From a virus: a DNA stretch of 28,135 nt. How positions within the stretch are numbered: the stretch's first letter is position 1; the number at the start of each line of letters is the position of its first letter. Location: the IMG/VR virus record IMGVR_UViG_3300030044_000177, positions 1 to 28,135 of that record. One strand, 5' to 3'. Under the pieces are notes generated by a model, which was given only the letters and a program-made list of their open reading frames with translations, had not been told where the DNA came from and ran no database searches. Both the position numbers and the translations under genes were made by a program. Below, piece after piece: positions 1 through 26,852 of this stretch.

Positions 1-265
1 GTGTGATGACACCAATCGCGGACGGGTTGAAATCCGAGTCTACGTCAATCGTCGCGTCGCCAATATCGCCCACAAGACACTCATCTTGCGGAACGTTGAT
101 TTGGTTCGCGACGTGACAGCGACCGATCAGCGTCACGGACGTTGATGCGAGCGCGGCATTGATCTCCGCGCTGTTGTCTCCGGCGACGCAAGTGTAGACT
201 GTCGAGGCGCGTGACTGACCGCACAAGAGAACGGCCAAGAATGCGAGATATGAGATGCCGCGCAT
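1..265 (-). CDS. Exported beta-helix (pectate-lyase-like) protein, N-terminal part only
   Basis: This reading frame is open from an ATG at 265 to the left window edge, giving 88 codons with no stop, so the gene is cut by the edge. The ATG overlaps the TGA of the FAD oxidoreductase gene by one base (TGATG), which fixes the start. The product begins MRGISYLAFLAVLLCGQSRA, a clear Sec-type signal peptide with a hydrophobic core and a likely cleavage site near residue 20. The mature part contains NSAEINAALASTSVTLIGR followed by an NVPQDECLVGD stretch. That spacing resembles the opening of pectate-lyase-superfamily right-handed beta-helix proteins such as phage tailspikes. I infer a secreted or virion-surface beta-helix protein. 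The fold call rests on about 60 residues and is moderate; the signal peptide is clear. Confidence 0.6.
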   Translation of the reverse strand, partial: MRGISYLAFLAVLLCGQSRASTVYTCVAGDNSAEINAALASTSVTLIGRCHVANQINVPQDECLVGDIGDATIDVDSDFNPSAIGVIT

Positions 266-1953
266 CAGAATATCGCTCCCAAAGTCGTCAGTTTCGGCGA
301 CACATCGGACGCATAGACAAGCGATTGAACCGACTTCGCGCCCGTCACAGCCGACGCGGCCATGACGCCCGCCGCGTCGCCCATGATTGCGAACTGCGCC
401 TCGTAGCGCATTGCCTGCCACGCGACATGCGAAACCGAGGCGCAGACCGGAACGAGCAAGTTCGTGCATTGCCCCGCCTGCGGGATCAGGATTTCCATAG
501 GAAGCTTGAAGTTCGTTCGTGTCGCGTCACCTGTGATCGAGTCAACGATGCCTTGGTTTTGCGCGTAGGCGTAATAGGCAGATGGATGGTTGTCTAAAGC
601 GTAGGTCGCGTAGCCAATTGAGTGTGCCTGCGAAGTTCCGCCAACAGTATCCGCTTGCACCATCACGTATTCGCCGACCATGCGTCGGCCTTCGCGAACA
701 TAAAGTTGGTATGGGAAATTCCCATTATCCACAAACTCTGTTCCAGCGTAGCCAAATAGCGAGGCATTAGTGTTTAGCCCTGCAGGGGCGTTTGGCGAAT
801 TTGCGACGTAGTAGAAAAACCCCTGCGTCCACGCCTTATGGCCCGCGACAATCGCAGCGCGCTGTGCCGGTGTTCCATCCGCGTAGCCATTGTCTTGATT
901 GAAATAGTCGAGCAGTAAATTATTGGCGCAATACTTGTTCGACCCCATCAGCGTAAGACTACACGCTTGCGCAAGTGTCGTGTAGCTCGCTGCATTGCAG
1001 ACCGCGCCAAGCCATGCGTATGCGCTGTCCTGATACCCAGCAGGAGCCGTAAACGCGACGCCACCATTTGCTATCGGCTGGATCGTTGGGCGAAACCCGG
1101 CGAACTGAATTAACGCATCTGCGCTTCCATTCGCCGCGCCGGTATTTGCAATGAAAGGGAAAACCGGCAACCCGCCAGACAGGTAGTTGACTGTCCCGCC
1201 ATACCCGCTCGGCGACGCCTTCGCCACGCCCGCGAGGCTTTCGCCGTATTGCGCCGAACTTTCGCGCCCGAAAGTGTACGACGCTTTGCTCTGCGCCGCC
1301 GCGCCCGCGAGAACATCACCCTCGTAACTTGCATCTATAAACACGGAGCCGGTGACGATCCCGAGTTGCGTCAATAGGCCGGTGATTGCTAGTCCCGACA
1401 TAATGACGGCGGGATAAACCGACCCACCTGTCGTCACCAATGCCGCATTAATATAAACGTCCACGTTGTAGAGATTGAAACAAAAATTATCTATTGCCTG
1501 CTTGCAATAGATTGGCTGCATGTTGAGCATGCTGGGCGGGAAATAACCCGCATCGGTCGAGGTCGCCGAAGGCGGCGCAGTCGTCGGCCAGTTTGGTTGC
1601 CCTGCCGTGCCGTTCAAGATTGCTATACGTTGGAGCACTTGCCAGAAGGTGCCTCCAATGTTTGTTCTAGACGCCGCCGCAATATCGAATTCCCCCAGTC
1701 CGCCTGCGCCAGTTATGCCGCCGAGATATGCAGTCGGCTCAAGCAACGCTACGCGCATCCCGTTCTGAGCCGCCGCGTTCGCCGCCGCGATCCCTGCGAC
1801 CGTCGCGCCGTAGACTACCACGTCATAAGTGCGCGGACGGATCGTTTGGCCTCTCGCACGCGAGTTTGCCATCACGAGCGCGGTCTGCGCGTGGAGCCGT
1901 TCCGCAAATGCCGACGCGCCCAATCCGGCGATGAGCCCGCGCCGCGTCAGCAT
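265..1953 (-). CDS. FAD-dependent oxidoreductase with Tat signal peptide
   Basis: A 562-aa product from the ATG at 1953, which overlaps the upstream TGA by one base (TGATG). In-frame TTG and GTG codons lie just upstream, but the overlap favours the ATG. The N-terminus has a twin-arginine motif (TRRGLIAG) ahead of a hydrophobic stretch and an AQ-type cleavage site near residue 23. A Rossmann dinucleotide site follows at about residues 43-78 (DVVVYGATVAGIAAA, then LLEPTAYLGG). Later family-like blocks are VFIDASYEGDVLA with FGRESSAQYGESLAG, and near the C-terminus LLVPVCASVSHVAW with IMGDAAGVMAA, where the second FAD contact normally lies. These match the FAD_oxidored (PF12831-type) family over its full length, so the enzyme looks intact. 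Its substrate cannot be read from sequence. An exported flavoenzyme after phage tail genes is unusual. Possible roles are host-envelope modification or virion-associated oxidation; both are inference. Confidence 0.85.
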   Translation of the reverse strand: MLTRRGLIAGLGASAFAERLHAQTALVMANSRARGQTIRPRTYDVVVYGATVAGIAAANAAAQNGMRVALLEPTAYLGGITGAGGLGEFDIAAASRTNIGGTFWQVLQRIAILNGTAGQPNWPTTAPPSATSTDAGYFPPSMLNMQPIYCKQAIDNFCFNLYNVDVYINAALVTTGGSVYPAVIMSGLAITGLLTQLGIVTGSVFIDASYEGDVLAGAAAQSKASYTFGRESSAQYGESLAGVAKASPSGYGGTVNYLSGGLPVFPFIANTGAANGSADALIQFAGFRPTIQPIANGGVAFTAPAGYQDSAYAWLGAVCNAASYTTLAQACSLTLMGSNKYCANNLLLDYFNQDNGYADGTPAQRAAIVAGHKAWTQGFFYYVANSPNAPAGLNTNASLFGYAGTEFVDNGNFPYQLYVREGRRMVGEYVMVQADTVGGTSQAHSIGYATYALDNHPSAYYAYAQNQGIVDSITGDATRTNFKLPMEILIPQAGQCTNLLVPVCASVSHVAWQAMRYEAQFAIMGDAAGVMAASAVTGAKSVQSLVYASDVSPKLTTLGAIF

Positions 1954-2882
1954 CACCAAACACCATAAATGCGGATGAATCCGTTTGCGCCTGGGCCGCC
2001 CGCCGCGTTAGTTCCGCCTCCGCATCCGCCGCCGCCGTAGCCGTAGAACGTCGGAGACGCAGAGCAGGCCACGCCCCCGGCTGCTCCGCTTACGCCAGCG
2101 CCGAACTCTGATGCCGCACCGCCCGCGCCGGCCCCGCCGCCTGACCCACCACTAGCGCCTCCGGAGACAACGTTCGCCACGCCGAAACCTGACGTGTTGC
2201 CGAGGAACGCGCCACCATTTCCAGCCGTACCAGCCGTGCTTGACCCGCCGCCGCCGCTGCTGCCAGGGGAAAAGGGGTAATAAACGTTAGCCGATGTCCC
2301 CGAAGTGTTAGCCGCCCCGCCCGCGACAAGACCCTGCCCGCGTGATGCACCGCCGACACCACCGACGCCAGCCGCGCCTGCCAAGCCCCCGTTGCTGCCA
2401 AGCGTCTGCAAACCCAAACCAGTGGAGCCTGTAAGGGTCGTAGTGCCGCCCTGGCCTCCGTTCGATCCTGCTGCCCCGAGCACCCCTCCCGCGCCAACGG
2501 TATTCGTAAGCGTAGCCCCAGGAGTGACCAATAACGGATAGGCCATCACGCAGCCCGCCGATGCCCCACCGCCGCCGCCTGCTGTGCTAGGGGTTGCTTG
2601 TCCCCCGCCGCCTCCACCACCGCCCCCGCACTGATCGACGTAAACGATGCCCTGGCTTGTGGCCGGGACCGTACAAACAGAGTTGTTGCCGCTTGGCACG
2701 CACGTAAATGCGCCTGATCCCGTGCATGTCGTCGCCGTGCCGTTCGTGGTGCAGAGAAAGGATTGGAAAGAGCCAACGCTCCCGCCGGGGCCGATCTGCG
2801 CCTCGCCAAGCGATAACCACAGCATCATCGCCGCCAGCAATACGCCACCGAGCGCGAGCGCCTTGAACAAGTTCCGTTTCAT
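1953..2882 (-). CDS. Glycine-rich adhesin/tail-tip-like protein with N-terminal signal or anchor
   Basis: A 309-aa product. The ATG at 2882 follows the upstream TGA after one base, with an AAAAGG-type SD in the preceding gene; an in-frame TTG at 2903 is less likely. Residues 1-28 (MKRNLFKALALGGVLLAAMM and onward) form a signal peptide or membrane anchor ending in GEAQ. After a short Cys-containing region (two close Cys pairs), most of the protein is Gly runs with Ala/Ser/Thr, including a run of nine Gly after DQC. It ends in NGFIRIYGVW, a beta-strand ending typical of phage glycine-rich tail proteins (Gly_rich_2-like). Polyglycine-II packing is known in T-even-like phage S16 gp38 adhesins, so a receptor-contact role is plausible. 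The position after the internal virion proteins fits a host-recognition gene. Exact function is not provable from composition. Confidence 0.65.
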   Translation of the reverse strand: MKRNLFKALALGGVLLAAMMLWLSLGEAQIGPGGSVGSFQSFLCTTNGTATTCTGSGAFTCVPSGNNSVCTVPATSQGIVYVDQCGGGGGGGGGQATPSTAGGGGGASAGCVMAYPLLVTPGATLTNTVGAGGVLGAAGSNGGQGGTTTLTGSTGLGLQTLGSNGGLAGAAGVGGVGGASRGQGLVAGGAANTSGTSANVYYPFSPGSSGGGGSSTAGTAGNGGAFLGNTSGFGVANVVSGGASGGSGGGAGAGGAASEFGAGVSGAAGGVACSASPTFYGYGGGGCGGGTNAAGGPGANGFIRIYGVW

Positions 2883-2883
2883 G

Positions 2884-5268
2884 TCATATTGCCTTTTGCG
2901 CAACTTCTAGGGCTTTTGCGACGGTATTGTCAGGCACGCCGAGTATAGCCTTAGTTTCGCGCTTTGTCGCGGCTTTTGCCTTTTCCGAGGCGGACATTAG
3001 GCGAGAAACTAGTTCTTCATGTGTTTTTTTGCGCTTGACGGAGCCGCCGCGAGCATATGCAGGCTGCAATTGGCCTTGTGGTTGCGGGTTGTTGTTTGGC
3101 GATGATGTCGCGGCAATGGCGGCACGGGGGACAAAGCCACGTAGCGCGCTCATCAAAGATGGTTTTGCTGCGATTGCGGCGGTAGTGTTGGCAATCTTTG
3201 CGGGATTTCCCTCCATGAGCATGTTTGCTATGGCCTCGTTTATGGCCTGCCGATGATTAGTCCCATGCTGTGCGGCGAACCCATACGCGCCGCCCGCAAC
3301 CGCGCCTTTCCACATATCCTGGCCTGCTTCATGCGCTCCCGCCGCGCCAACTAACGCGCCTCCCGCCGTTGGTCCGAGGGATTGAGCTACAGACCCGATA
3401 AATCCATGTCCAAACGGCTGAGGACCATGTCCTTGGTCCGTCAATCGCTGACCCGTCAGAGAATTGCCTAGCGATTGGCGCAATTGATCCATGCGGTCTT
3501 CGACGCGAAGAAAGCTTTCAACTTTATCGGCATAAGGACCAAGTGCGTTTCTGAGTTTTCCTGCCGTTGCAGGATCATTGAATTGTCTGAGAGCATTCGT
3601 CCGCGCGTTAGCGTTCGTCACCTTCTGCGCCATATCCGCCGCGACGCCTTGGCTGAATAACGCCTTTTGCGTAGAGTTCAGGCTGTTAAGCGCTGCATCG
3701 GATTGCGAAGATTGCAAGGCGTTTTTCTTGCCAAGATATTTTAGACCCGCTGTGAAGGCGTCATTTTCTCCGAAGAAACCCGCCGCTCCCGCGCGAGCCT
3801 GTGCATATTCAGGAACGGCATTGTCCAAGTGGTTAACCAATGCTGTGCGCAACGATCCAATCAACCTTGAGTCATTGGTCGGTTTTCCCAACCCCGTTAA
3901 AGATGAATCATATTGACTGTCCAAATTTCGTTTAACTATATCCCAGAATTGCAGATTTGGCGTAGTGCCGGGCGGAAGCGTAAGATTGCCGTTTGCATCC
4001 GTAACAAATGGATTTTTGACTATCGGGCCAGAAGCTCCTGTTTGCGCTCTTTGTAGTACGGCTTCCTCTTGGCTTACGCGATTTGCGTCTCCTATCGCCT
4101 TTTTGACGGACGGAGATTGAATTAGGTTTTCTAGATCGGGCGTCCAAACCGATTGCGCGTTAGGAGAACTAAAAGCCGTTTTGTAATTTGCAGCATTGGC
4201 GACCTTCGCTTTTGAGGACAGGTCATCCATTATTTCAGTTGGATTTAGATTGCTACCAAAGAGATTTTGCAGGAAAGCTTGAGACCTATCCCCTTGTTCG
4301 TTGAACCGAGATTCAACAACATTTCGTATTGTTTGCTGCGCCTCCGGTGACCCTACGGCGGCCTTGTCAGCCAATCGGCGAAGTTGTCCGCCGCCCAATG
4401 CGTCGGCAACGGTGACAGGCTGATTTGCGTCAATAGCGTTAGAAATATCGTTAGGAGACAATGCCGCGCTCGGATCGCGCGCGCTCTGAATGGCTTTTGC
4501 TGCCTCAGATTTTGGGCTAGTCAATCCAAGCTTGGAAAGCGCGGTTCCCGCCGCCTCGCTTACCGCTGGCGCGACCGCACCTAACCCCGCGCCCCACATC
4601 GCCCCGGATTTCGCGTTCTTTAGTCTATCGTCAAGTGTATCGCCGTTGCCGGCTCCATAGGCTGCGCCAAGCCCGGCCCCGACGACGCCCGAACCCAATG
4701 TAGCGGCCCCAAGACTGCCCAAACGAGGAGCCACGACACGAGCAGCGTTACCAACAGCTGCAACAGGTCCGTCAATAGGTAACGCCAATCCGCCCGCGAC
4801 GACTGGCGCGACCATGCTAGTAATAGGAAACGCGCTGCTAATTCTTGCATTATCAGCCTCAATGCGCTGTTTTTGTTGGCTAAAACGATCAGAAAAACTT
4901 GTGTTCGGATTTGTCTCCCCGATGTTATCAACAGCGGCCCATTTCGGCAAATATGTTTCGCCCGCCTGAATAGCCGCGCCTATGTCATGGGCGAAGGGAA
5001 CTGAATTAGCCACTCCATAAGTCAGCGCGTCGCCCCATCCGGGTGTTTTTGGCGTAGGCCCGGCAGTCGCGCTCTTGTCTCCCGTAACAGGAGGCTTTGG
5101 CCCCGGCGAAGGTGCATTGAACGCCTTGTTAAGTTCGTCAAAATCGCTTTCGTCGTCTTGTTTGGGCGCGGCGTCGCTTTGTGGCGCAGTCTTGCCTTGC
5201 GCCGGCTTGGCGGCGGGAGCGGCCTGAAAGGCGGCGTTGAGTTCGTCGAAATCTTCGCTATCCGCCAT
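2884..5268 (-). CDS. Large internal virion / DNA-ejection-type protein
   Basis: A 794-aa product. I place the start at ATG 5268 because GAGG lies five bases upstream. It overlaps the end of the 1373-aa gene by 11 nt. A TTG at 5283 would add five residues. The N-terminus has two copies of an acidic motif, DFDELNAAF and DFDELNKAF, about 35 residues apart. Next comes a hydrophobic Gly/Ala-rich region (about residues 140-250; VGAGLGAAYGAG, MWGAGLGAVAP), then a long helical Gln/Asn-rich body, a second Gly/Ala patch (ALVGAAGAHEAG) and a basic tail with YARGGSVKRKKTHEEL. Glycine-rich amphipathic stretches in a long helical virion protein are typical of podovirus ejection proteins that form a channel through the envelope. 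No enzymatic motif is seen. Family membership is inferred from architecture and position. Confidence 0.6.
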   Translation of the reverse strand: MADSEDFDELNAAFQAAPAAKPAQGKTAPQSDAAPKQDDESDFDELNKAFNAPSPGPKPPVTGDKSATAGPTPKTPGWGDALTYGVANSVPFAHDIGAAIQAGETYLPKWAAVDNIGETNPNTSFSDRFSQQKQRIEADNARISSAFPITSMVAPVVAGGLALPIDGPVAAVGNAARVVAPRLGSLGAATLGSGVVGAGLGAAYGAGNGDTLDDRLKNAKSGAMWGAGLGAVAPAVSEAAGTALSKLGLTSPKSEAAKAIQSARDPSAALSPNDISNAIDANQPVTVADALGGGQLRRLADKAAVGSPEAQQTIRNVVESRFNEQGDRSQAFLQNLFGSNLNPTEIMDDLSSKAKVANAANYKTAFSSPNAQSVWTPDLENLIQSPSVKKAIGDANRVSQEEAVLQRAQTGASGPIVKNPFVTDANGNLTLPPGTTPNLQFWDIVKRNLDSQYDSSLTGLGKPTNDSRLIGSLRTALVNHLDNAVPEYAQARAGAAGFFGENDAFTAGLKYLGKKNALQSSQSDAALNSLNSTQKALFSQGVAADMAQKVTNANARTNALRQFNDPATAGKLRNALGPYADKVESFLRVEDRMDQLRQSLGNSLTGQRLTDQGHGPQPFGHGFIGSVAQSLGPTAGGALVGAAGAHEAGQDMWKGAVAGGAYGFAAQHGTNHRQAINEAIANMLMEGNPAKIANTTAAIAAKPSLMSALRGFVPRAAIAATSSPNNNPQPQGQLQPAYARGGSVKRKKTHEELVSRLMSASEKAKAATKRETKAILGVPDNTVAKALEVAQKAI

Positions 5269-8200
5269 TGCCGCCTCGGACAAAATAACGCGCTAGATTA
5301 GGATCAACATTATTGGCTCTCAAAACTTTATCTATAACTTGCGGTGAATATTTACCCGATGTAAGTTTGCTAAAGGCCTGTCCTTTATTCAACATAAGAT
5401 CTTGCAGTTCTTTTGTTTCTAAATCGTATTTCTGGGGACCATTCTTATCTGAAAAATCATCCGCCGCTCCATACGATGTTCCCATTGGGCTGTCGGATTT
5501 CCATTGCAGGGCATGCTTGTATCGATCTTGAGCCCGCATTTGATCCGTCATCAGGCGAGCGGATATCTCCGATGACGCCTCTGGCGGTTGATCCAAACTC
5601 GCGTTAGCGCCCTTGAAGACGTTCAGCGCGCCAAGAGTGTGTTCGTCGGCTCCTTGCGCCCTAGCCGCTCCTTGCAAAGCGTTAATCTTGGCCTCAAGAG
5701 CCGCGCCCTTGTCGCCTTCGCCGAAATAGCCGTTACCCATCCCAAATTGGGAGGCGAGTTCATTAGCGTATTTGGTAAATCCGGCGCGCATTGAGAACGT
5801 CGGACCAGCGGCGTTCATGCCGGTTTGCTGATAAGCGTCCGCAAGCGTTGCCGCCATCGTTCGCGTGTAACCAGAGGTTTCCTGAGCTGCTTGGGAGGCT
5901 TTCTGAGAACTGTCTAAATAAGCGGCGGATTGAGCAATATCATGCGGAGCCTGGGGTCCAGACAAAACCTCGTTCTTAGCTCGATTGGCGCTGTCACTAT
6001 TGTAACCTACGCCTCTTAGGTCTATCCCACTTGCAGAAATAGGCGGCGTCACAGACGGGTTGACTGTAGTTGAATCCCCTTGTTTGTTCGCCGCATTAGG
6101 AACGCCGCCCATGAGCGGGACGCCTGTTGTCGCAATCCTCTTGTCAACAACCCCTAGATTGCCCTTCGGGTTCAGGATCATGCCATTATCGAGAACGCTT
6201 TCGCGAGCCGCCGCGACGCCTGTCCGTTGCGTCTCGGCCTGTTCGCGAGCGATATCCGCCTGCGTCTTGCCTGCATCCATATAGCCCTTCGCTCCAGCGC
6301 CAAGCCCCTGTAGAGCCGCGCCGAGAACGGACTGCCCGCGATAGCTTCCGACCGCGCCAAGGCCGCTCAGCACGCCCATTAGAGCGCGCTCACCCATGCC
6401 GCCGTTCGTGGCGGATTGACCGTCAGGCTGACCGTGGAAGAATTTGCCGAGACTGTCGAAAAGGCCGGGCTGTTGCGCGGGAGTAGCTTGCGGTTGACCG
6501 CCGCCACCCCCCATATTCGAGACCGGCGCGGGGTTTATCCCTTGCTGATATGCTTTTACCACAGCGTCGCCGCGCCACGGCTTGAGGCCGCCCGTCGCCA
6601 TTTGGTCGATAGCGAATTGATTTGCCAAATTCGCATGAGCCGGGTTTGTCGGATCAATGCCTTTCGCCATCGCCTCGTTACCGAGACCGTTACGCACATT
6701 GAGTTGAAACGCGCCGAACGAAAACGGCTTTCCGGTCTGCGGATCAATATCGACCGAACTTGCCCCATTGGGGTTTTTCGGCGAAATGGCGCGAAGTCCT
6801 TCTGTGTTGGCGACGCCAAGCGCAAATTCAGGTTTCACACCGCGATAGATTGAATAATCACGAATGAACGCGGCCTGCCCTGCCTGATCGGTTCCATAGG
6901 CTGATGGCTCGGGAGCCGTAGACGGGCGCGCGCCATCGTAGGTAGGAGCGGCCCATGCGCCCAATCCAGCTTGCGCAGCCGATGGCGCAACATTCGCCGT
7001 TGCCGCAGCGGGAGGAGCAAGTCCAGCCGCTGAAGACGCGGGACGCTTGAACGCATCGGGCGGAACGGGAATATCTTTCGGCCCCGGCGCTATCTTGTCC
7101 GGGTCAGGCGTTGGTTGTGCGTTTACATCATCGGGAGAAATCATCGGCGACAGGGGAGAAAAGCCAGCGTTAGCGCCCGAAATCCCGTCCGAAGTTTTGG
7201 GCGCCGCTTCCGAATGAGCCGAAGGAGGAGCAAGGCCACCCACTCGCTGACGCGCGATCATAGCCTCCGGGCTAAGCGCGTCATCAACGGGAGCGTCGCC
7301 GTGCGGATTGATATTGTCATCCCCAACACTATCGCCGTCCGCGTGATGCTCGCGAGGGACAAGGCCACCACTCTTGAGCGCGACCATCGCCAACGCGTCG
7401 CCGATAGAGCTTGCTGCATCCGCCGCATACGGAGCCGCATCGCTACCTAATTTCGCCAATGTCCCTATCGTTTGCAGATTGCTGTTGGCGGAATTGTTGC
7501 TATTCGCCCCGGCAGGCTGAGCGGGGTTAAGCGTGTATTTCGGTTGACCCGCCTGCGACGCCAGCGCGCTTGAAACAGGTCCATTCGCTGAGCTATTCGG
7601 CGCTTGCTCCATAACCTTTTCGCCGGCGGCTAGACCCTTCTCACGCTGCTGCAACGCAGCATCGCTCTGATAAGGATCATCGATATAACCACCGTCATCA
7701 CGCTTAAGCGCCAGTCCGCCATGAGAGTAAGTCGGAGCCATCGCCGCCCCAAGACCGGAAACGACGCTCTTGCCCGCATCATAAATTTGCGTGCCATCGT
7801 TATACAGCCCCTTCATCTGCTGATATTGATTGGCAAGTTGCCCAAGGCCCTGCATTTGCGGAGGCGTAGGCGAGTGCTGGAACGCAATACGGCGAGCCGC
7901 CGATTGCTGCGGAGCCGGAACGTAGGTTCCGCTACCAGGAGTTCCGTTTGACCCTAGACCATATTCGCCAGAGTTCGGATCAAACACCAGTCCGCCGCCG
8001 CCAGATTTCGAGGCGCGGTCATAATCAACCGTCTTCAATCCGCCGGCCAATCCGACCGCCTCGGGATGCTTTTTCTCGACCTCATCGGCCATAAATCCGA
8101 TATGCGTGACTTTTTCAGGATCGCCCTTGTATTTGAACGAGTAGATTTTCAGGCCGTTCTTGGCGCGGCCCATTTCGCGGATATCCGTCTTTGCGCGACG

Positions 8201-9379
8201 ATCCGAAAGCAGATTTCCAAACAAGCCGGTAGGCTGCGTGGTCGAAGTCGTCGAACCGGAAAGCGATCCCGTCCCTTCCGCGACATTTGCCGCAAACTGC
8301 GCCGTCTGGAAAGGATACGCCTGCTGTTGCAGAAATTGATTGTAAAGCGCAGTCTGGCCGGCCTGTTGCGTTGCCTGTTCCTGTTGACCGGCAGTCAACT
8401 GAGCTGTAGCGCCCTGCAATGCGGCAGATTGTGCGCCCGCGCCCAAACCCGCAAGAGAATTAGATGTTTCCGAACCGATATTGTACTCACCTTGGCTTAT
8501 ATTACCCAATCCGGACGCGGCTTGATAATCGGCGTTTCCAACACCCGCCGCATTCGTCGCGTATTGGGCAGCAGTCCCCGCATTTTCGTTAAATGCCTGT
8601 TGGCTTAGTCCAGCTTCCTGAGTCGCCCCGGTCTGTATCGCAGCGCGATTGGCTTGCGCCGCGCCGAGGTTAACACCCTGCTGTTGCTGCGCCGCTCCTA
8701 GAGCGGTATTGTATCCCGTGTTAAGCAACCCGGAATAGATGTTTGCATTTGCCAAGTTTTGCTGTTGCGAAAGATTAGCCGCCGCTATACCGGCCCGATC
8801 CCCGCCGAATGCGCCAGACGTAATCGCGTTGCCCAATTGACCAGCCATAGCTTGCTGATTGTTCTGATTTAGCAAAGCGGATTCCGACCCTACAACGTCG
8901 GACAGATACGGACTCATAAATTGATTGATTTGATCCGCCCCGATTTGCTGGGCATTGACCGCTTGAGTTCCTGAATTTATAAGACCTTCGGCCTGCAAAT
9001 TGCCAGAATACGCCTGCTGAGCGCCTTGCTCTAGATAATCGTTAGATTGACCAAGAAAGTTGTTAGAATAATTCTGACCTTGTGTGATATCTGATGCAGC
9101 CGTTGAATAATTTGGCAGAGACATCCCTTCTGACGCAAGCAAATTTCCGGTAGCACTTGAATAATATGGCTGGGCTTGGTTCGCCGCAGTGTTCGTATTT
9201 TGGATGCCCGCTTGCTGCGTGCCCGTCAGTGGCGCGACGAACGCATTAGGGTCCGTGCTGTATTGCTGAAACGGCGTGTTAGCTGCGGCCTGAGCTTGCG
9301 TGTTGACGGCATTGTAACGCGCGAGCACGTCCTGGGGAACTTGTACGGTGGAAGTCGAGGTCGAGGTTTTCCCGCCCAA
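5258..9379 (-). CDS. 1373-aa virion protein with internal S74-like region and lysozyme-like domain
   Basis: The gene starts at a TTG (9379) directly after the TAA of the acetyltransferase gene, with GGGGAGG upstream at good spacing; no ATG is near. The N-terminus (GGKTSTSTSTVQVPQDVLA) and a Gln/Asn/Ala-rich helical region to about residue 385 match a recurrent podovirus virion family. Residues about 389-455 (LLSDRRAKTDI, FKYKG, HIGFMADEVEKKHPEAV) resemble the Peptidase_S74 intramolecular chaperone of tail fibres; the conserved Ser is S392. After a Pro/Ala-rich linker, residues about 825-950 look like a lysozyme or lytic transglycosylase domain: ALGVANTEG with candidate catalytic E860, then FGAFQLNVRNGLG. 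The remainder is helical with a Gly/Ala patch. The likely role is a peptidoglycan-degrading, T7 gp16-like internal protein needed during DNA entry. An internal S74 region is unusual. Confidence 0.7.
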   Translation of the reverse strand: MGGKTSTSTSTVQVPQDVLARYNAVNTQAQAAANTPFQQYSTDPNAFVAPLTGTQQAGIQNTNTAANQAQPYYSSATGNLLASEGMSLPNYSTAASDITQGQNYSNNFLGQSNDYLEQGAQQAYSGNLQAEGLINSGTQAVNAQQIGADQINQFMSPYLSDVVGSESALLNQNNQQAMAGQLGNAITSGAFGGDRAGIAAANLSQQQNLANANIYSGLLNTGYNTALGAAQQQQGVNLGAAQANRAAIQTGATQEAGLSQQAFNENAGTAAQYATNAAGVGNADYQAASGLGNISQGEYNIGSETSNSLAGLGAGAQSAALQGATAQLTAGQQEQATQQAGQTALYNQFLQQQAYPFQTAQFAANVAEGTGSLSGSTTSTTQPTGLFGNLLSDRRAKTDIREMGRAKNGLKIYSFKYKGDPEKVTHIGFMADEVEKKHPEAVGLAGGLKTVDYDRASKSGGGGLVFDPNSGEYGLGSNGTPGSGTYVPAPQQSAARRIAFQHSPTPPQMQGLGQLANQYQQMKGLYNDGTQIYDAGKSVVSGLGAAMAPTYSHGGLALKRDDGGYIDDPYQSDAALQQREKGLAAGEKVMEQAPNSSANGPVSSALASQAGQPKYTLNPAQPAGANSNNSANSNLQTIGTLAKLGSDAAPYAADAASSIGDALAMVALKSGGLVPREHHADGDSVGDDNINPHGDAPVDDALSPEAMIARQRVGGLAPPSAHSEAAPKTSDGISGANAGFSPLSPMISPDDVNAQPTPDPDKIAPGPKDIPVPPDAFKRPASSAAGLAPPAAATANVAPSAAQAGLGAWAAPTYDGARPSTAPEPSAYGTDQAGQAAFIRDYSIYRGVKPEFALGVANTEGLRAISPKNPNGASSVDIDPQTGKPFSFGAFQLNVRNGLGNEAMAKGIDPTNPAHANLANQFAIDQMATGGLKPWRGDAVVKAYQQGINPAPVSNMGGGGGQPQATPAQQPGLFDSLGKFFHGQPDGQSATNGGMGERALMGVLSGLGAVGSYRGQSVLGAALQGLGAGAKGYMDAGKTQADIAREQAETQRTGVAAARESVLDNGMILNPKGNLGVVDKRIATTGVPLMGGVPNAANKQGDSTTVNPSVTPPISASGIDLRGVGYNSDSANRAKNEVLSGPQAPHDIAQSAAYLDSSQKASQAAQETSGYTRTMAATLADAYQQTGMNAAGPTFSMRAGFTKYANELASQFGMGNGYFGEGDKGAALEAKINALQGAARAQGADEHTLGALNVFKGANASLDQPPEASSEISARLMTDQMRAQDRYKHALQWKSDSPMGTSYGAADDFSDKNGPQKYDLETKELQDLMLNKGQAFSKLTSGKYSPQVIDKVLRANNVDPNLARYFVRGGNGG

Positions 9380-13525: not shown

Positions 13526-14296
13526 TTATCTACTCGGCGTCGCTACGGGCGATTGCGATTGCGACGACCAAGCCGCATCGCGGAATTTCTTTCTATTCTC
13601 AAGCTCCTTTGCGCTAGCCAAAAGCGTTTGATACTGAGTTTCGTACGATCCCGGCATTTCTGGATCATTAGAAGTAGGTAAAAAGTTTCTTTGAAATTGC
13701 GCAATATAGACCATACTAGCATTAATCAACAAATCAGGGTAATTTGTTGATATATACGTCGTTCCGGCCCCATTTGTGCCAGCGGTCGCATAAAGGGATT
13801 GCAAGTTTTGCGTACCCGTAATCGTCAAGGCATAGTTCTGGTCAGGGTAAGGACCAAAAAGCAGGTTTGCCGATGTATTACCACCAGTTGCCTGATCACC
13901 ACCATATACCGCGAGCCATAAAGGAGGACCAGTATAGGAACTGTCGTTATAAGTGTTCTGAATTATCTCTTTTGACGTAGGTAACAACGGCACATTTGAA
14001 GTTCCGCTCGTATAAGAAACCGTTTGTATCGTCTGTAGATCATTAACAGAAACCGCAAGCGTATTCGTTCCTGCCGTAAGATTATAAGTCATGTTGACAA
14101 CGACAGAATTTAACAAATCTAAATCACGCTGAATACGCAACTCGGCATAATTCAGCATAGACGGAATCATGGCCTGCGCAGCCGTGTCAACGGGCGTCAC
14201 CACGCCTCCGACCGTCGAATAGTTTAGAACTGCCATCGTGCATATTTGCGTGACGTACATATTATACGTCAGAGCATTTGTGTTAGGATTTGTCAT
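13526..14296 (-). CDS. Head-tail adaptor (SU10-like phage adaptor) protein
   Basis: A 256-aa product. The ATG at 14296 overlaps the TGA of the beta-helix gene in an ATGA arrangement, which sets the start; earlier in-frame codons lie inside that gene. The N-terminus (MTNPNTNALTYNMYVTQICT) and later blocks such as LNYAELRIQRDLDLL, GPPLWLAVYGGD and NYPDLLINASMVYIAQF follow the recurring pattern of phage adaptor proteins that sit below the portal in short-tailed phages. The C-terminus (SYETQYQTLLASAKELENRK) is helical and charged, also typical. It lies directly before the nozzle-like gene, the expected neighbour. No signal peptide or enzymatic motif is present. Recognition is from family recall. 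Confidence 0.65.
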   Translation of the reverse strand: MTNPNTNALTYNMYVTQICTMAVLNYSTVGGVVTPVDTAAQAMIPSMLNYAELRIQRDLDLLNSVVVNMTYNLTAGTNTLAVSVNDLQTIQTVSYTSGTSNVPLLPTSKEIIQNTYNDSSYTGPPLWLAVYGGDQATGGNTSANLLFGPYPDQNYALTITGTQNLQSLYATAGTNGAGTTYISTNYPDLLINASMVYIAQFQRNFLPTSNDPEMPGSYETQYQTLLASAKELENRKKFRDAAWSSQSQSPVATPSR

Positions 14297-16272
14297 AGCC
14301 CAAACCACTTGACGGTCGGCGCGACGGTATAGCTCGGCGTCCATGTCTGCCCTGGGCCAACCGTCAAGCAACCGATCGTCAAACCCGTTGTGGTTCCACC
14401 AACTGCAAGCGCCGAAACCGCGCCGCCGGTGATGCAGATGCTAACAGGAAACGGGTAGGTGTTCGTCTGCGCAACCGTCGTCGCGGGGATCGACGGCGCT
14501 CCGCTCAGATACCCCGTAGGGTTGAACCCTGGAATGTACTCAAAAGCCTGCTGCGCAGACGTCGTGTAGTTGACGATACCCGTTCCGCCTGCGGTCAGCG
14601 AGCCGCCGGTGAAAGCGACGCCAACACCCGCAGCGGAGCTATCAATCGCGTAAGCGCCCGATCCGGGGATGATGACGTTCCCCGTACCGTAGATGAGCGT
14701 CGCCCCGCTGGAAATCGTGATCCCGCTGAAAGTCGCCCCGACGTTCTCGACGTGGTTGTTGCTTATATCCCAGTCAACGGGTCCGCCTGTCACTCCACTG
14801 AGGAAGTTCGCAAGATAAATCCCGTCCTTCGTCGAGCCGACGACGGTGTTGTGGTTGAGCGCAATGCGCGACTGCGCGTATCCCGCGGTGTTAGTGTAGA
14901 TACCCCAACCCGTTGGGGTCATGACATGGTTCCCGTTGACCTGCTCGTCGCGAAGTTGCCCGAGCAGCGCGATGCCGTTCTCTACGCTGCTATAGGACCA
15001 ATTTTCGTTGATCTGATCGCCGAAGGCCAAGCCACAAGTCGCGGACGGCGCGGAATAGGCCCCGGCAATGATGAAATCGTTCCCGTAAGCCCGATTGTTG
15101 TAGAGTTTGAACCCGGAATGACACGGGTCGAGATCGAACCCATCCCAGAGCCTCGGGTAAGTAATCGTGATCGCGACCGGCGACCCCGCCGACCCAACCG
15201 TCTGTGAGTTGTTGACGGTGTAGGTTCCAACGCCGCCGGTCCCGGTGCCGACCGAGGTCAGGTTCGTTGACCCCGCGACGCCGGCCCCCGTCACGACGTC
15301 CTGAGTTATCGGCGATATCCCGACCGCGACCTGTCCCGATGTGACAGACAGGATTGTTAGCGTGGTCCCGCTGATGTATCCCTGGCCTACAAATGGCACG
15401 ATCTTTGAACACGCCCGCGCAACGTTGTTGTGCCAATTCCCGTCCTGCGCGAACTGCCCCGGCGTGCCGAAGGAGTAGTAACAGTTTGTAAAAACATCAT
15501 GGACGTAATTCGCATCAATGTCTGTGTTTATACCTGCGTCTTCGATCCCGTTGTCAGAAGTAGCTATGACTTCGTTGTACTTCGCTTCCGCGAACTGGAC
15601 GCCCGCGTTAATCAGGATGCCATCGCTGCGCCGGGTAAATGGCGCGAGCGCCCCGCCGTTCACCAAACAATGATAAATACCGGCGTGGTTTCCGTTGAGC
15701 GTGACGACTGGAGTTCCATTGATCGACGGCGCAACAAACCCGGATGCGCTGTCGCCGTCGCATTCGATCCTCACGTCTGCCGGAACCGATACGAAGGCCG
15801 TGTAGTTTAACCCTGCCGGAATATGCAGCGTCCCGCCGGCCGTACCAAGCGCAGCCATGATTGCAGTGAATTGCGTTGTCGAGGCAGAACCCGTTGGCGC
15901 GCCCCAAATGTTAGGCGTCGCCGAGAATTTACTAAAGTCCGCGACATAGCATCCTGCTACAGATTGGATTTGCGCGCCGTTATCAGCATTGGCGCACGTT
16001 CCGCCGACTGTAAGGTTATACCACGCAGTCCCGCCGTCGCCTGAGGTCGCGTAGTTGTCACGAATGATCGCCGGGTACAACGTCGTGTTTGTGATTGCCT
16101 GGACTGCGGGTGTATTTACGAAATGCGGAGTAGCGCCATTAGACACCGCCGTTCCGGCAGGCAATGTAGCCGTCCCTGTAACCGTAAGATTGTTGAACGT
16201 CGGAGACGGATAAGTTTGCGCCATAGCCGACGATGCGAGCAAAGAAGCGGCAAAAACCGTCAGCTTACGCAA
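14293..16272 (-). CDS. Exported right-handed beta-helix (tailspike-like) protein
   Basis: I set the start at TTG 16272 (659 aa). GGAGG lies six bases upstream, and the resulting N-terminus MRKLTVFAASLLASSAMAQ is a clean Sec signal peptide with cleavage after AMA. A TTG at 16293 would add seven residues without a comparable SD. After TYPSPTFNNLTVTGTATLP, common in phage surface proteins, comes a beta-helix region from about residue 130: FTAIMAALGTAGGTLHIPAG, then repeated short strands (GILINAG, NGIEDAG, GIYTNTAG, ISNNHVENV) typical of pectate-lyase-like folds. A Gly/Thr-rich module (GTGTGGVGTYTV) sits inside near residues 295-375. No catalytic residues were assigned. Likely a polysaccharide-binding or -cleaving protein. 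Its place between two connector genes is odd, as is a signal peptide on a presumed virion protein. Confidence 0.7.
   Translation of the reverse strand: MRKLTVFAASLLASSAMAQTYPSPTFNNLTVTGTATLPAGTAVSNGATPHFVNTPAVQAITNTTLYPAIIRDNYATSGDGGTAWYNLTVGGTCANADNGAQIQSVAGCYVADFSKFSATPNIWGAPTGSASTTQFTAIMAALGTAGGTLHIPAGLNYTAFVSVPADVRIECDGDSASGFVAPSINGTPVVTLNGNHAGIYHCLVNGGALAPFTRRSDGILINAGVQFAEAKYNEVIATSDNGIEDAGINTDIDANYVHDVFTNCYYSFGTPGQFAQDGNWHNNVARACSKIVPFVGQGYISGTTLTILSVTSGQVAVGISPITQDVVTGAGVAGSTNLTSVGTGTGGVGTYTVNNSQTVGSAGSPVAITITYPRLWDGFDLDPCHSGFKLYNNRAYGNDFIIAGAYSAPSATCGLAFGDQINENWSYSSVENGIALLGQLRDEQVNGNHVMTPTGWGIYTNTAGYAQSRIALNHNTVVGSTKDGIYLANFLSGVTGGPVDWDISNNHVENVGATFSGITISSGATLIYGTGNVIIPGSGAYAIDSSAAGVGVAFTGGSLTAGGTGIVNYTTSAQQAFEYIPGFNPTGYLSGAPSIPATTVAQTNTYPFPVSICITGGAVSALAVGGTTTGLTIGCLTVGPGQTWTPSYTVAPTVKWFGL
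15155..15385 (-). other. Gly/Thr beta module (copy in beta-helix protein)
   Basis: This segment encodes ISGTTLTILSVTSGQVAVG through GTGTGGVGTYTVNNSQTV and a final short strand. It shares layout and key residues with the modules at 18105-18328 and 19505-19762 and interrupts the beta-helix strands. Read as an inserted surface domain, by inference. Confidence 0.6.
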
Positions 16273-16889
16273 AAGATACCTCCATTGATCCAAAGCCTAT
16301 TCGGGTAAAGCGGCATCGAGGCCGGTACAACCGTTGTGTATGATCCTCCCGGCGTCACAGAGACAACCCCGCCGTCACTCCAATAGGTTCCAGAAGTGAG
16401 CGGGACGGTCGTCGGCAATGGATATCGACCGCCCGCCGTTACGCACAGAACCCCGGCAACGCCGTTCGCAGAATATGGATTAGCCGTATCGACCCAATAC
16501 AGACCACCGCCAGCAGGAGGCGTCCTAGGTAGGTTTGGAAGCGCGCCAATGCTGCTAAGCTGGCAAAGGAACAAAAGCTCGTTTGGATAGCCTGTTGGCG
16601 AATAGGTTACGCCTTGAGGCCCTTCATCGGCGACATAGAACTCCGGCCTTGGATTGATAATAGGTAGCGGATCGGCAGGAATAAAAATAGATCGGGCTTG
16701 CTCTTGCGGAGTATCGTAACACCGATCACAAACTAGAATGCGGAGATTTTGCAGCTTCGTACCATTCCAGTCGTACTGATACTTTAGATCGACGTGGTTA
16801 TAACGAAATCCGCAACGGTCGCAAATAGCATGCGCTTCCGGCGAGCGAGCATTTGTTCTAGCTCTGCCGGCGCGACTGGCGTAAGCCAT
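16260..16889 (-). CDS. Zinc-ribbon phage protein with Trp/Gly repeats
   Basis: A 209-aa product whose ATG directly follows the TAA of the adaptor gene. The N-terminal third contains two CxxC pairs, C23/C26 (CDRCGF) and C54/C57 (CDRCYD), spaced like a zinc ribbon. PQEQARSIFIPADPLPIINP follows, a stretch I recall from phage connector-region proteins. The C-terminal part has three related short repeats: LYWVDT ... GVLCVTAGG, TYWSDGGVVSVTPGG and RLWINGGIFCVS. Each is a Trp followed by Gly-Gly and hydrophobic strands, suggesting a small repeat fold. The gene lies between a gp4-like adaptor and the beta-helix gene, so a connector or tail accessory role is likely. Zinc binding and function are inferred. 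Confidence 0.6.
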   Translation of the reverse strand: MAYASRAGRARTNARSPEAHAICDRCGFRYNHVDLKYQYDWNGTKLQNLRILVCDRCYDTPQEQARSIFIPADPLPIINPRPEFYVADEGPQGVTYSPTGYPNELLFLCQLSSIGALPNLPRTPPAGGGLYWVDTANPYSANGVAGVLCVTAGGRYPLPTTVPLTSGTYWSDGGVVSVTPGGSYTTVVPASMPLYPNRLWINGGIFCVS

Positions 16890-17579
16890 TTACCTATAGT
16901 ACCCCGATAGTTGAGGAGAAACATAAAAATCACTATTTTCCGTGTTCGTCAATGCCGCCGCCGTCCAAGCCGCCGTAGCCGCCGCCGAAAGTCCCATTGC
17001 GCGCTCTGGAGCCCAGCTAATCGCAAGCTCAGCCGCCAGACCCTTAGCAAAAGCATTTAACCAAAGATAAGGAATGTCCGCCACCTGACCATTTGTGAAC
17101 GCCGCATCCTGAATTTGCAACACGGCATAATAAGTGAACGAAACCTCGTTACCGTCAGGAACGGGATAAAAGTTGATAGTCGGCGTCAACGTGCGATTGT
17201 GCCAATAAACCGTTGGCGGCGCTTGCTGCGTCGGATTTGGATAGCTAACATATTCCGTCCGAGAGACAGGGAAAAGATAGCGGTTCGTGTTCGCCGCGCC
17301 GCCAGGGACGGTCATGTAGAGATCGAGGATTTCAACCAAGTTCGGACTGACCGAATATGTTGCGGTTCCCTGAACGAAATTGACTGTAGTTGGCGCGACC
17401 TTCCAGAGATTGACGCCTTTATTCGCCCAATCCCCTAAGACAAAGTTAGCCGCCATTCTGGCGCTTTCCATATGCTCTTGCAACAACGCCGTAGGGCGAA
17501 TGCCGCACATATGGAAAGCTTGGATGGTAAGTTGAGCAATCGACGGATTGAACGAGTAAGTCCCGCTCGACGACGCCAT
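16890..17579 (-). CDS. Head-completion / gp4-like head-tail adaptor
   Basis: A 229-aa product with its ATG at 17579 overlapping the previous TAA (TAATG). The opening GTYSFNPSIAQLTIQAFHMC then GIRPTALLQEHMESAR, the central NKGVNLWKV and VQGTATYSV, and the SRTEYVSYPNPTQQAPPTVYW block are highly characteristic of P22 gp4-like adaptor proteins in short-tailed phages. These form a ring under the portal and seal the DNA-filled head. INFYPVPDG, DIPYLWLNAFAKGLAAELAI and the Ala-rich helix near the C-terminus also fit. The length is normal. It lies after the head-protein genes, as expected for a connector. No anomalies are visible. This is among the more secure structural assignments here. Confidence 0.75.
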   Translation of the reverse strand: MASSSGTYSFNPSIAQLTIQAFHMCGIRPTALLQEHMESARMAANFVLGDWANKGVNLWKVAPTTVNFVQGTATYSVSPNLVEILDLYMTVPGGAANTNRYLFPVSRTEYVSYPNPTQQAPPTVYWHNRTLTPTINFYPVPDGNEVSFTYYAVLQIQDAAFTNGQVADIPYLWLNAFAKGLAAELAISWAPERAMGLSAAATAAWTAAALTNTENSDFYVSPQLSGYYR

Positions 17580-18442
17580 TAGACGGGAGCCACGCCAGAT
17601 TGCATGATGTTCGCTCGAACAGACCCGGTTCCGCTATTGAGCAAAATTCTCCCATATCGAGGAGGAGGATTGCCCGCTATGGTCTGCGTAGTCGTCGCGC
17701 CGACAACGTTGGTTGAAACGCCCGTGCTATCCCACACGAAAGAAGCCCGGCTTACAAGGTACTCTATGTCATCCCCGCTTGTCTGATAAGTGTAGTTGAC
17801 GGTCCCGACCGCGACAAACTGAGCCGTAACGCCTGCCAGCGCCCATTCGTCGAACCTGATCCAAGGCGAACCCGCAACCGAAGTCGTGCCAACCGTAATC
17901 GTCGAAGCCGTCGCCGCAGACGCGACAATGGAATAGACAACCAAATAATCCAAAACAGAAGATGCGGTAGCCCCGCTCGCTCCCGTCACAACTTCCGAAA
18001 TAGGCGCGTTAGCCCAATCCAAGCCGGTAATCGTGAACGTAATTCCGCTATCGTTTCCGTTCGACGCAATCCCAATGCGCCTGGCCGTATCGAGCGTGAC
18101 GACGGTGTTACCGTAGATCGTGGTCGATGATACCGTTTGAGACGCACTAACGGTATAAGTCCCGGCTTGGTTCGTCGTGGTGGAAAGCAGGCCCGTAACC
18201 TGGGTATTTGCCGAAACACCAAGGCCGTTGAGCAGAAACCCGCGATTGAGATACCCAGAGGTCACAGCCGAAATCGTCAGCACATTGCCCGAGCCAATCG
18301 AGCCTGTCCCGACAAACGTGCTGGACGCCAACGTGCCATTAAGCGCGACCGTACCGCCGCCCGTAGGGATCGTCTGAGACGTGGCGATATTGTTCGCGGA
18401 GGCCGCAACAAGCGGCCCCACGGTCACGACAACAGGGCGCAT
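17579..18442 (-). CDS. Head/decoration-type structural protein with inserted beta module
   Basis: A 287-aa product from ATG 18442, with AAGGA six bases upstream. The start ([20 protein letters not shown]) and the segment [20 protein letters not shown] through [14 protein letters not shown] match a family of small beta-rich phage head or tail proteins. The end, [15 protein letters not shown], is also typical. Between TVALNGTLA and [10 protein letters not shown], about 75 extra residues form a Gly/Thr/Ser module ([16 protein letters not shown] ... [19 protein letters not shown]). As I recall the family, these two flanks are normally close together, so the module looks inserted. No catalytic residues or signal peptide are seen. 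The exact virion location is unknown. Confidence 0.6.
18105..18328 (-). other. Gly/Thr beta module (copy in head protein)
   Basis: This segment encodes [19 protein letters not shown] ... [12 protein letters not shown] ... [19 protein letters not shown]. It lies between two family-conserved strands of the 287-aa protein and closely parallels the module at 15155-15385. Confidence 0.6.
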
Positions 18443-18884: not shown

Positions 18885-20153
18885 TTACAGGGTAGCGTAC
18901 TGAGGCTGGCCGAACAGGCCTACGCCAAGAGTTCCGACGCCCATTGCGGCGGGGTTAGGTGACTGCGTAACAATCAATCGCAGCGTGCCATTGGAGGCCG
19001 TTTGCAGCGCATAAGTCCCACGCACATCGCCCGTCGAAGCCGTTGGCGTGGTCGTGACCGCAGCCGTATATCCGGTCGAAGACGCAATGCCTGCGGAGTT
19101 GAAATACAAGCTCACGTCCCATTCCGTCCCGACAACAGGCGTAAAGTTGTCAGACCGTATTGGAAATCCGACGATATCCTGCGTTCCAACCGAATAAGAG
19201 CCGGTTCCGTCCGTTTTGCTCGGCGTCACGCTCTGGATATACTTCCAAGCCTTGACGCCGTTCGTTGTCGTCGCCGACGTGCCGGAAGTCGTGATCGTTT
19301 CCGTCATCGACGTTCCATACACATCAGCCCCGACAACCGTAAAGACGTTGCCCGCCACCTGAGACGTGGTGGACGTGATCGAAATAGCCCGCGAACACAT
19401 GGCCTCGGGAAGCCAAAGCATGACAGTCCCAGCAGACCCATAGGGGAGAGCGTTCAGCGTTCCCCTCGCGAGCAGACCCGTACCCGGCGCGACGCCAAGA
19501 ATACCTGTGAAGATGCCTGTAACCGTGTCGCTCGTTGCCGTCGCGGTCGCATTGGCGCTCAGGAAATAGGTTCCGATGCCGCCATTGCCCGTGCCGTAGC
19601 CGACGATATAAGCGCCAGTCGGGATATTCGCCGCCGTCGTGCTATCGGTCAAGACCATGCCTATAGCCAAACGATTATAGCAAGCGCCGCCACCCGCCGC
19701 GACCGCCGTAACGGTCATGACATTCGATCCGCTCGTCAGGTTCGCCGTTACCGACGCAACAAGAGGATCAATGCACAAAGCGTTCGTCAGCGAGGACGTA
19801 GTAAGGCCGCCGAATAGCGTGCCATTGACGCCGACCGCAAGACCCGAGACGGTCGTAGAGGCCAGCATCATCGCAGTTCCCGCCGTGACGTTCGCCGCAG
19901 CCGCAATGATCGTGTTCGATTTCGTCATCGGAATGACGTTCATCGTGTTGATCTTGGTTGTTCCCAACCAACCCAACGTCGGAGCGCCAAAGTTCTGGCC
20001 CGGATCGTAGGTGTACGCCGGCCTAGGATCAAGGATATGGTAGCCGCCATACGAAAGCGATGGTCCAAGCTCGGGGTTGTAGTCAGGGACATATCCGAAG
20101 TTCGGAACTTGCCCATAAGCTACGACAGGCCCTTGAAACGCGCTGATGCTCAT
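18885..20153 (-). CDS. Capsid decoration/structural protein with inserted Gly/Thr module
   Basis: A 422-aa product whose ATG at 20153 directly follows the TAA of the nuclease gene. The N-terminus (MSISAFQGPVVAYGQ; NPELGPSLSYGG; ILDPRPAYTYDPGQNFG; GWLGTTKI) matches a conserved phage head-protein family near major capsid genes. The rest is beta-rich with many Ser/Thr/Gly residues. Around residues 130-215 is a module with LTSGSNVMTVTAVAAGGG and GYGTGNGGIGTYFLSANATA, similar to modules in two other proteins here. A later part, VVGADVYGTSMTETITTSG and QDIVGFPIRSDNF, looks like a standard beta-sandwich. No signal peptide or enzyme motif is seen. Role as a minor capsid or decoration protein is inferred from family and location. 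Confidence 0.6.
   Translation of the reverse strand: MSISAFQGPVVAYGQVPNFGYVPDYNPELGPSLSYGGYHILDPRPAYTYDPGQNFGAPTLGWLGTTKINTMNVIPMTKSNTIIAAAANVTAGTAMMLASTTVSGLAVGVNGTLFGGLTTSSLTNALCIDPLVASVTANLTSGSNVMTVTAVAAGGGACYNRLAIGMVLTDSTTAANIPTGAYIVGYGTGNGGIGTYFLSANATATATSDTVTGIFTGILGVAPGTGLLARGTLNALPYGSAGTVMLWLPEAMCSRAISITSTTSQVAGNVFTVVGADVYGTSMTETITTSGTSATTTNGVKAWKYIQSVTPSKTDGTGSYSVGTQDIVGFPIRSDNFTPVVGTEWDVSLYFNSAGIASSTGYTAAVTTTPTASTGDVRGTYALQTASNGTLRLIVTQSPNPAAMGVGTLGVGLFGQPQYATL
19505..19762 (-). other. Gly/Thr beta module (copy in decoration protein)
   Basis: This segment encodes LTSGSNVMTVTAVAAGGG ... RLAIGMVLTDS ... GYGTGNGGIGTYFLSANATA. It matches the other two copies in order of elements but has diverged more and carries two extra Cys-containing turns. 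Confidence 0.5.
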
Positions 20154-20837
20154 TTAGGCGGCCCCTTCAATCGGTATGACATTAGAAGCATCCTTGTGTT
20201 TGTCGAGGTAATCGGCTGCGGCGCGAAGGAGCGCGGGATCGTCGTTAAATGACCCAAGGCCGACGTTGCATTTGTGGCAAAGCAGACCACGAACTTTCCC
20301 GGTCGCGTGGTCGTGGTCAACGTGAAGGGCGACGGCGGAACCATCAACCTTGTGTCTGCGGCTTTCTTCTTTGCCGCAAACCTTACAAACTCTACCTTGA
20401 GAGACAAGCATTTGCTCATGCTCGCCAAGCGTCATTCCGTAAACGTTTTTCAGCGAATACGCCCGGCCATCCTCGGATGACCGCGTAGAATGCTTTTTTC
20501 CTTCAAGACGGACAGACTTAAACTCGCCTTCCTTCAGGTTTTTAATCTTGATATCCAACGTATCGCCGTTCTCGAATAGAACCCTAGTCTTAGGCCATTC
20601 TCCGTGCACCAGAAGCCAAGCTATGCGCGCCGCCGGGATCGGTACACCATGCAACCAAACCCAACGATAAAACGTATGTTGACCGCGACCGTCTGTAGCT
20701 TTTCGGACAGTCGTAGCATCCGACCCAACCTTACCGCGTTGCCCCGAACGTTCTCGGCGAAGCATGACGCCGGTTTCAGGATCATACGAAATGTACTGCG
20801 CAACTTCCTCTCTGGTCAGGTTTACAGACTTCGTCAT
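20154..20837 (-). CDS. Endonuclease VII-type nuclease with degenerate HNH-like N-terminal domain
   Basis: A 227-aa product from ATG 20837, with AAGG just upstream. In-frame GTG/ATG codons at 20903-20898 would place the start within the promoter-like region, so I prefer 20837. Residues about 15-105 resemble the HNH_3/homing-endonuclease layout (YDPETGVMLRRE ... RIAWLLVHGEWP ... ENGDTLDIKIKNL), but the usual His residues are absent (AAR and VLFENGD instead of AHR and DHINGD). Residues 150-212 are a clear endonuclease VII domain: C151/C154, HVDHDHATG (H172-H177), C187/C190 and GLGSFNDDPALL. Endonuclease VII of T4 resolves branched DNA, but standalone relatives often act as mobile or homing nucleases. 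The gene interrupts the capsid cluster and has its own promoter-like signals, suggesting a recent intruder. DNA target unknown. Confidence 0.85.
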   Translation of the reverse strand: MTKSVNLTREEVAQYISYDPETGVMLRRERSGQRGKVGSDATTVRKATDGRGQHTFYRWVWLHGVPIPAARIAWLLVHGEWPKTRVLFENGDTLDIKIKNLKEGEFKSVRLEGKKHSTRSSEDGRAYSLKNVYGMTLGEHEQMLVSQGRVCKVCGKEESRRHKVDGSAVALHVDHDHATGKVRGLLCHKCNVGLGSFNDDPALLRAAADYLDKHKDASNVIPIEGAA

Positions 20838-20843
20838 AGCGCC

Positions 20844-20864
20844 TTCTCTCTCTTCCAGAGAGAA
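20844..20864 (-). promoter_or_regulatory. RBS-overlapping hairpin in the nuclease leader
   Basis: On the minus strand TTCTCTCT and AGAGAGAA form a perfect 8-bp stem with a GGAAG loop, ending seven bases before the ATG at 20837. The last stem bases overlap the AAGG Shine-Dalgarno (20845-20842). The structure is seen directly. A role in limiting ribosome access, as with RBS-sequestering hairpins of T4 homing endonucleases, is inference. Confidence 0.55.
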
Positions 20865-20867
20865 CGC

Positions 20868-20896
20868 ACAATAAACGGAGTTGTCGGTTTCGTCAA
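20868..20896 (-). promoter_or_regulatory. Candidate sigma70-type promoter for the nuclease gene
   Basis: Minus-strand TTGACG (20896-20891) and TATTGT (20873-20868) are separated by exactly 17 bases. They lie in the 87-nt gap between the capsid gene and the nuclease start. The -35 matches consensus at five of six positions and the -10 at four of six. A transcript would start near 20861 and carry the hairpin. The alternative is a chance match. Confidence 0.5.
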
Positions 20897-20924
20897 GCAT
20901 CACGCAAGACCTGACAAAGAAAAA

Positions 20925-26582: not shown

Positions 26583-26852
26583 TTATCCCTTAGAAACAGA
26601 ACCCCAATCGTCCGACAACACGTCGGTTTGAGACGCCAGCCACGGGACGAACTTTTTGTCAGCCGTGTACATAATGATAAATGGCAAAGTGCTTTCTGGA
26701 ACAATCGCCGCAACATTATGGTCTGCCGACCATCCGGCGCGGACATAAGCTAGCCACATTTCCTTTCCGTTCCAACCAGAACGGGAAACCCGTTCGCCGC
26801 GCTTTAAAGCGGCAAGCGCCCATCCAAAATCTTGCGTATCTCCGTTGTGCAT
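26583..26852 (-). CDS. tad2: Tad2-like (DUF2829) anti-Thoeris protein
   Basis: An 89-aa product, the normal length for this family, from ATG 26852, two bases after the upstream TAG. The N-terminal DFGWALAALKRGERVSRSGW and NGKEMWLAYV, then LPFIIMYTADKKFVPWLASQ with TDVLSDDW at the C-terminus, match the DUF2829/Tad2 family almost end to end. Tad2 is a small phage protein that binds the signal molecule gcADPR made by Thoeris TIR proteins and so blocks this bacterial defence; some members also bind cyclic dinucleotides. No residue of the visible core motifs appears lost. It lies between two RADGG-type virion-module genes rather than in an early gene set. Family recognition is strong; its ligand here is inferred. 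Confidence 0.85.
   Translation of the reverse strand: MHNGDTQDFGWALAALKRGERVSRSGWNGKEMWLAYVRAGWSADHNVAAIVPESTLPFIIMYTADKKFVPWLASQTDVLSDDWGSVSKG

Follow-up and report, generated by a model that had tools for sequence, protein, structure and literature searches.

The left end of this virus record raises the question of why a phage late operon would carry a predicted FAD oxidoreductase with a twin-arginine signal, and where such an enzyme would act. We analysed all 28,135 bases of the record (hereafter the window), which comes from an incomplete virus contig, and the features on which the argument rests are collected in Table 1.

Table 1 Features of the window discussed in the text
Feature	Position	Strand	Basis or remark
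FAD_oxidored (PF12831) protein, stand-alone	265..1953	minus	562 aa, Pfam match
Tat-type signal peptide MLTRRGLIAGLGASAFAERLHA, predicted cleavage before Q23	1888..1953	minus	sequence, rule-based scan, start fixed by TGATG
Dinucleotide-binding segment YDVVVYGATVAGIAAANAAAQNGMRVALLEP, residues 43-73	1735..1827	minus	Pfam and conserved columns
Family block IDASYEGD, residues 206-213	1315..1338	minus	conserved columns
C-terminal FAD-family block, residues 484-545	319..504	minus	conserved columns
Glycine-rich protein, Sec-type signal (MKRNLFKALALGGVLLAAMMLWLSLGEA-Q), 8 Cys	1953..2882	minus	directly downstream of 2884-5283
Start of next gene, Sec-type signal MRGISYLAFLAVLLCGQSRA-S, Cys-rich	2..265	minus	cut by contig end
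Fibre/beta-helix-like protein, Sec-type signal then AQTYPSPTFNNLTV	14293..16293	minus	phrog_21413, tail-fibre phrog_38233, shared N-terminus
Conserved virion-type protein (phrog_5880), upstream edge of cassette	2884..5283	minus	tail fibres come next in relatives

The FAD_oxidored gene and its N-terminus

The minus strand carries an uninterrupted, complete reading frame from an ATG at 1953 to a stop at 265-267, while the plus strand over the same interval is interrupted by stops. PF12831 matches residues 44-547 (model positions 1-409 of 416, E 4.6e-64, 217.7 bits), exceeding the curated cut-off of 27 bits across the whole domain, and this full-length match rules out a chance reading frame or a wrong strand. 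The complete FAD oxidoreductase claimed in the earlier note, which gave no strand, is thus confirmed and placed on the minus strand, and the three family blocks listed there are likewise present: the nucleotide-binding block DVVVYGATVAGIAAA at residues 44-58, FIDASYEGD at residues 205-213, and a C-terminal block reading LLVP...SHVAW...MRYEAQ...MGDAAGVMAA. Cellular relatives share 92 columns at a conservation of at least 85%, and the window protein keeps 72 of these, including the dinucleotide glycines, D207, Y210, E211, D213, G229-R230-E231, Y418, R420, E421, R423, R424, D454, H456, and N498. With these binding-site residues retained, the protein probably binds FAD. Matches to solved structures were partial, falling on the dinucleotide fold of flavoproteins (e.g., 2i0z), and none of them spanned the whole domain.

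The N-terminus, MLTRRGLIAGLGASAFAERLHAQ, combines a twin arginine, a weak h-region that is short and uncharged, ER before the c-region, and LHA-Q as a cleavage site of the AxA type; these sequence features of a Tat substrate lie at the true start of the protein. We judged export signals by a simple sequence rule against a background of 1074 distinct ORFs from viral loci, in which Sec-like N-termini occur 40 times (~4%), many of them in what look by sequence like lysis or membrane proteins, and Tat-like ones 4 times (~0.4%). Four window genes pass the rule: three consecutive ones, encoding the FAD, glycine-rich, and truncated left-end proteins, and 14293-16293. The twin-arginine signal noticed earlier is therefore upheld, and MLTRRGLIAGLGASAFAERLHA-Q can credibly be read as a Tat signal through which the FAD protein would be exported. 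The Tat pathway passes folded proteins, and FAD insertion takes place in the cytoplasm; the enzyme would accordingly cross the membrane already folded. Because none of the other viral PF12831 proteins that were read carries a clear Tat signal, export and fibre attachment are partly competing readings.

A variable slot in the late operon

The FAD gene lies downstream of the capsid, stabilisation, and internal-virion genes. The ATG of the glycine-rich gene stands one base after the stop of 2884-5283 (TGACATG, spacing +1), the FAD ATG overlaps the glycine-rich stop as TGATG (-1), and a second TGATG (-1) joins the FAD stop to the start codon of the gene after it. The late-operon location proposed for the gene is borne out by this arrangement, which also fixes the FAD N-terminus and disfavours an assembly break. 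Because the record is incomplete and the gene lies close to its left end, the cassette is only partly seen. The truncated gene beyond it has no Pfam match and looks beta-helix-like by eye only. Cysteine is absent from both large virion-type genes upstream (2884-5283 and 5258-9379), and the cysteine content of the glycine-rich and truncated proteins is as would be expected of proteins located outside the cytoplasm.

In the capsid protein, the virus shares 83.5% identity with MW202675.1 and about 39% with Roseobacter and Pelagibacter phages, and contigs with 100% identity carry the same virus 26.6 kb past the right end of the window, where an SU10-type portal is found. Four relatives were compared at this position, MW202675 and three MCP-related contigs (G004, G011, and G018). 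In each, a tail-fibre gene without a signal peptide follows the homologous virion protein, and in MW202675 a Ycf48-like protein comes next after the tail fibre. Between 2884-5283 and its counterpart in the relatives, homology is weak and seen in the C-terminal part (E 1e-6 to 6e-4), but the gene order is identical, and the slot occupied by the FAD gene is accordingly a tail-fibre slot of variable content. PF12831 itself is absent from all 30 MCP-related contigs and from all 8 records found by the fibre motif described below, an absence that is only suggestive because many of these contigs are fragments. Judged by gene order, what is conserved is the slot, not the FAD gene. The earlier note had taken absence from close relatives, with no conserved position, as counting against its proposal; the gene is indeed missing from them, whereas its position is the tail-fibre site, at which PF12831 recurs in unrelated phages.

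The earlier note did not remark on the export signals of the neighbours. In the protein of 14293-16293, the signal is followed by a post-cleavage motif, Q-[TS]-YPSP-x-F, that is common to fibre-like genes of three unrelated phages (L182, L183, and L187), in which these genes stand at the tail-fibre site after the tail genes of another phage type, and whose signals differ in sequence but are still signals. Proteins with Sec-type signals in or near the tail-fibre site of these phages lie in L182 (7720-10323), L183 (7800-8669 and 8721-10739), and L187 (2-934 and 4314-5111). Among GenBank phages, the glycine-rich protein, the 14293-16293 protein, and the N-terminus joining a signal peptide to YPSP were all without a match.

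Several other genes of the window, all on the minus strand, deserve mention. phrog_21413 matches a module common to the virion-type proteins 14293-16293 and 17579-18442, and a similar stretch seems, by eye, to be present in 18885-20153. Directly after the capsid gene, 20154-20903 encodes a Recombination endonuclease VII / HNH_3 protein, possibly a homing endonuclease. A GroES-like co-chaperonin gene (24805-25209; PF00166, phrog_3188) lies among the head genes, and the late operon also contains an 89-aa Tad2-like protein (26583-26852; PF11195, Thoeris anti-defence 2-like).

PF12831 in other phages and in bacteria

Besides the window, 22 viral records carry PF12831, a count that leaves out two. 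MT836609.1 (L006), filed in GenBank as a phage, was rejected because its genes look by eye like a Bacteroides polysaccharide locus, and L203 was dropped because its gene looks cellular and stands at the edge of the record. By blastp, the domain lies C-terminal to seven mutually unrelated N-terminal segments, several of which can be recognised as tail-fibre domains: one of roughly 300 aa is common to ten records, and the others occur in L011, L198, L202, L206, L207, and L209/L210. The segment of L011 matches tail-fibre PHROGs, and L202 directly follows a homologue of the central tail fibre J. Such fusion to fibre or other N-terminal segments, which the earlier note did not cover, explains why most phage relatives lack an export signal. 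Three records (L008-L010) have short N-termini without signals, L008 with a C-terminal Golvesin_C domain, and one protein (L213) is stand-alone and signal-less, encoded between tail-fibre and endolysin-like genes at the tail-fibre site of a baseplate-J-type phage. The window protein is likewise fused neither to a fibre nor to any other phage N-terminal domain. In five records (L003, L004, L013, L015, and L016), another residue takes the place of the final glycine in the dinucleotide motif, which the window protein keeps, and FAD binding by those five is doubtful. The recurrence of same-family enzymes fused to fibres in several unrelated phages hints at a use of redox chemistry by phages at the surface of bacteria. 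In another baseplate-type phage (L007), whose PF12831 gene has an ambiguous start, an acyltransferase-like protein, so judged by eye, is encoded near the FAD gene (6117-7229, minus).

We read 80 loci of cellular relatives, judging signals by eye. Most of these proteins begin with a Sec or lipoprotein signal, and a few are Tat-like (e.g., L029 and L076). Among 67 genes flanking them are 9 SusD, 4 rhamnosidase (alpha-rhamnosidase), 3 GH2, 2 GH28, 2 sulfatase, and 1 RGL11, all gene types known from polysaccharide degradation, and this neighbourhood suggests a glycan-related role for PF12831. Together with the fibre-fused relatives, it fits the idea, raised earlier, of action on a polymer during attachment; nothing in the analysis points to the oxygen-stress use proposed alongside it. 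A strong match was found in only 4 of 385 genomes drawn from the class of L060 (Sphingomonas). The window protein stands on a long branch, its closest cellular relative being 37% identical at best. FastTree joined it with all phage rows and one bacterial row, a clade on which we do not rely, as it involves long branches and is lost in the mixture-model tree, where the window protein and L011 take long, unsurely placed branches and the other phage rows form two clades. The disagreement between the trees and the split phage clades make several captures of PF12831 by phages likely.

Proposed role and known systems

We give a probability of about one half to the reading that the protein is a Tat-exported flavoenzyme of a variable host-surface (tail-fibre/receptor) cassette in a freshwater SU10-portal-type phage. 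The protein would be made late in infection, receive its FAD in the cytoplasm, and cross folded via the Tat pathway of the host, Sec being the route for the adjoining glycine-rich and fibre-like proteins. Beyond the inner membrane, it would oxidise or bind a glycan belonging to the host's envelope or capsule, either as a soluble enzyme in the dying cell or attached to virions after lysis. The sequence data show the family, the operon, the signals as sequence, the slot, and the fusions in other phages, and from these FAD binding, Tat export, the glycan substrate, and virion attachment are inferred. Extended to other phages, and quite tentatively, some would place glycan-acting flavin oxidoreductases at the tail-fibre site, and some would export parts of the cassette via Sec or Tat, to fold outside with disulfides or to cross folded with FAD, joining or assisting virions only after lysis.

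It is possible, at somewhat longer odds, that the enzyme is instead carried on the particle as a tail-fibre protein like its fused relatives, the Tat-like leader being a leftover or an attachment segment. The fibre-type N-termini of the phage relatives agree with this, as do the missing signals of the short-N-terminus proteins and of the stand-alone L213, which lies in a tail module. The signal of the window protein, however, retains all Tat features, and the adjoining genes have export signals too, so that a leftover would need to be shared.

A recent capture of a secreted bacterial gene without a tail role, altering the surface of the infected cell, for instance, or excluding other phages, appears unlikely. 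The gene is absent from close relatives, and the cellular relatives are secreted, a few with Tat-like signals, but the long branch without a close cellular relative, the 1-base overlaps with both neighbours, the GC content of 0.58, like that of the capsid gene, and the recurrence of PF12831 in phage tail loci all count against this reading. We regard an assembly chimera, with bacterial sequence joined to that of the phage near the end of the contig, as highly improbable: the FAD gene does fall within 2 kb of the start of an incomplete record, and the contigs found for the same virus stop short of it, yet overlaps and one-base spacing run unbroken from a phage virion gene through the glycine-rich and FAD genes to the next.

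Searches of open-access papers turned up neither an account of PF12831 in the tail fibres of phages nor one of a tail-locus protein with a Tat signal, in keeping with the earlier note, which knew of no established phage role for the family. Hydrolases, lyases, and esterases are the known enzyme types of phage tails; a flavin redox enzyme joined to seven unrelated N-terminal segments would bring new chemistry to host recognition, and export signals on proteins of the tail-fibre locus would raise the testable question of the place and time at which some parts of the virion are produced.

Among known systems, the secreted cellular PF12831 members of Bacteroidota, Planctomycetota, Verrucomicrobiota, and Acidobacteriota resemble the window protein in the full-length domain, the conserved blocks, and the export signal, at about 31-37% identity; they often lie in polysaccharide-degradation loci, whereas the window protein has a long branch in the trees and is encoded in a phage operon. 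The Rhizobium phages RHph_Y55, RHph_I72, and RHph_N3_19 (QIG68875, QIG76482, and QIG73101) also carry PF12831 in a structural operon, with 28-29% identity to the window protein over the aligned region. Unlike it, their proteins have the roughly 300-aa N-terminal domain, no signal, and adjoining portal/head genes, and in RHph_Y55 and RHph_I72 the last dinucleotide glycine is lost. Tail-spike and tail-fibre depolymerases (lyases, hydrolases, and deacetylases) are variable enzymes of the tail-fibre locus with a putative glycan target; the window protein shares such a locus and putative target with them but differs in its predicted flavin redox chemistry and its export signal.
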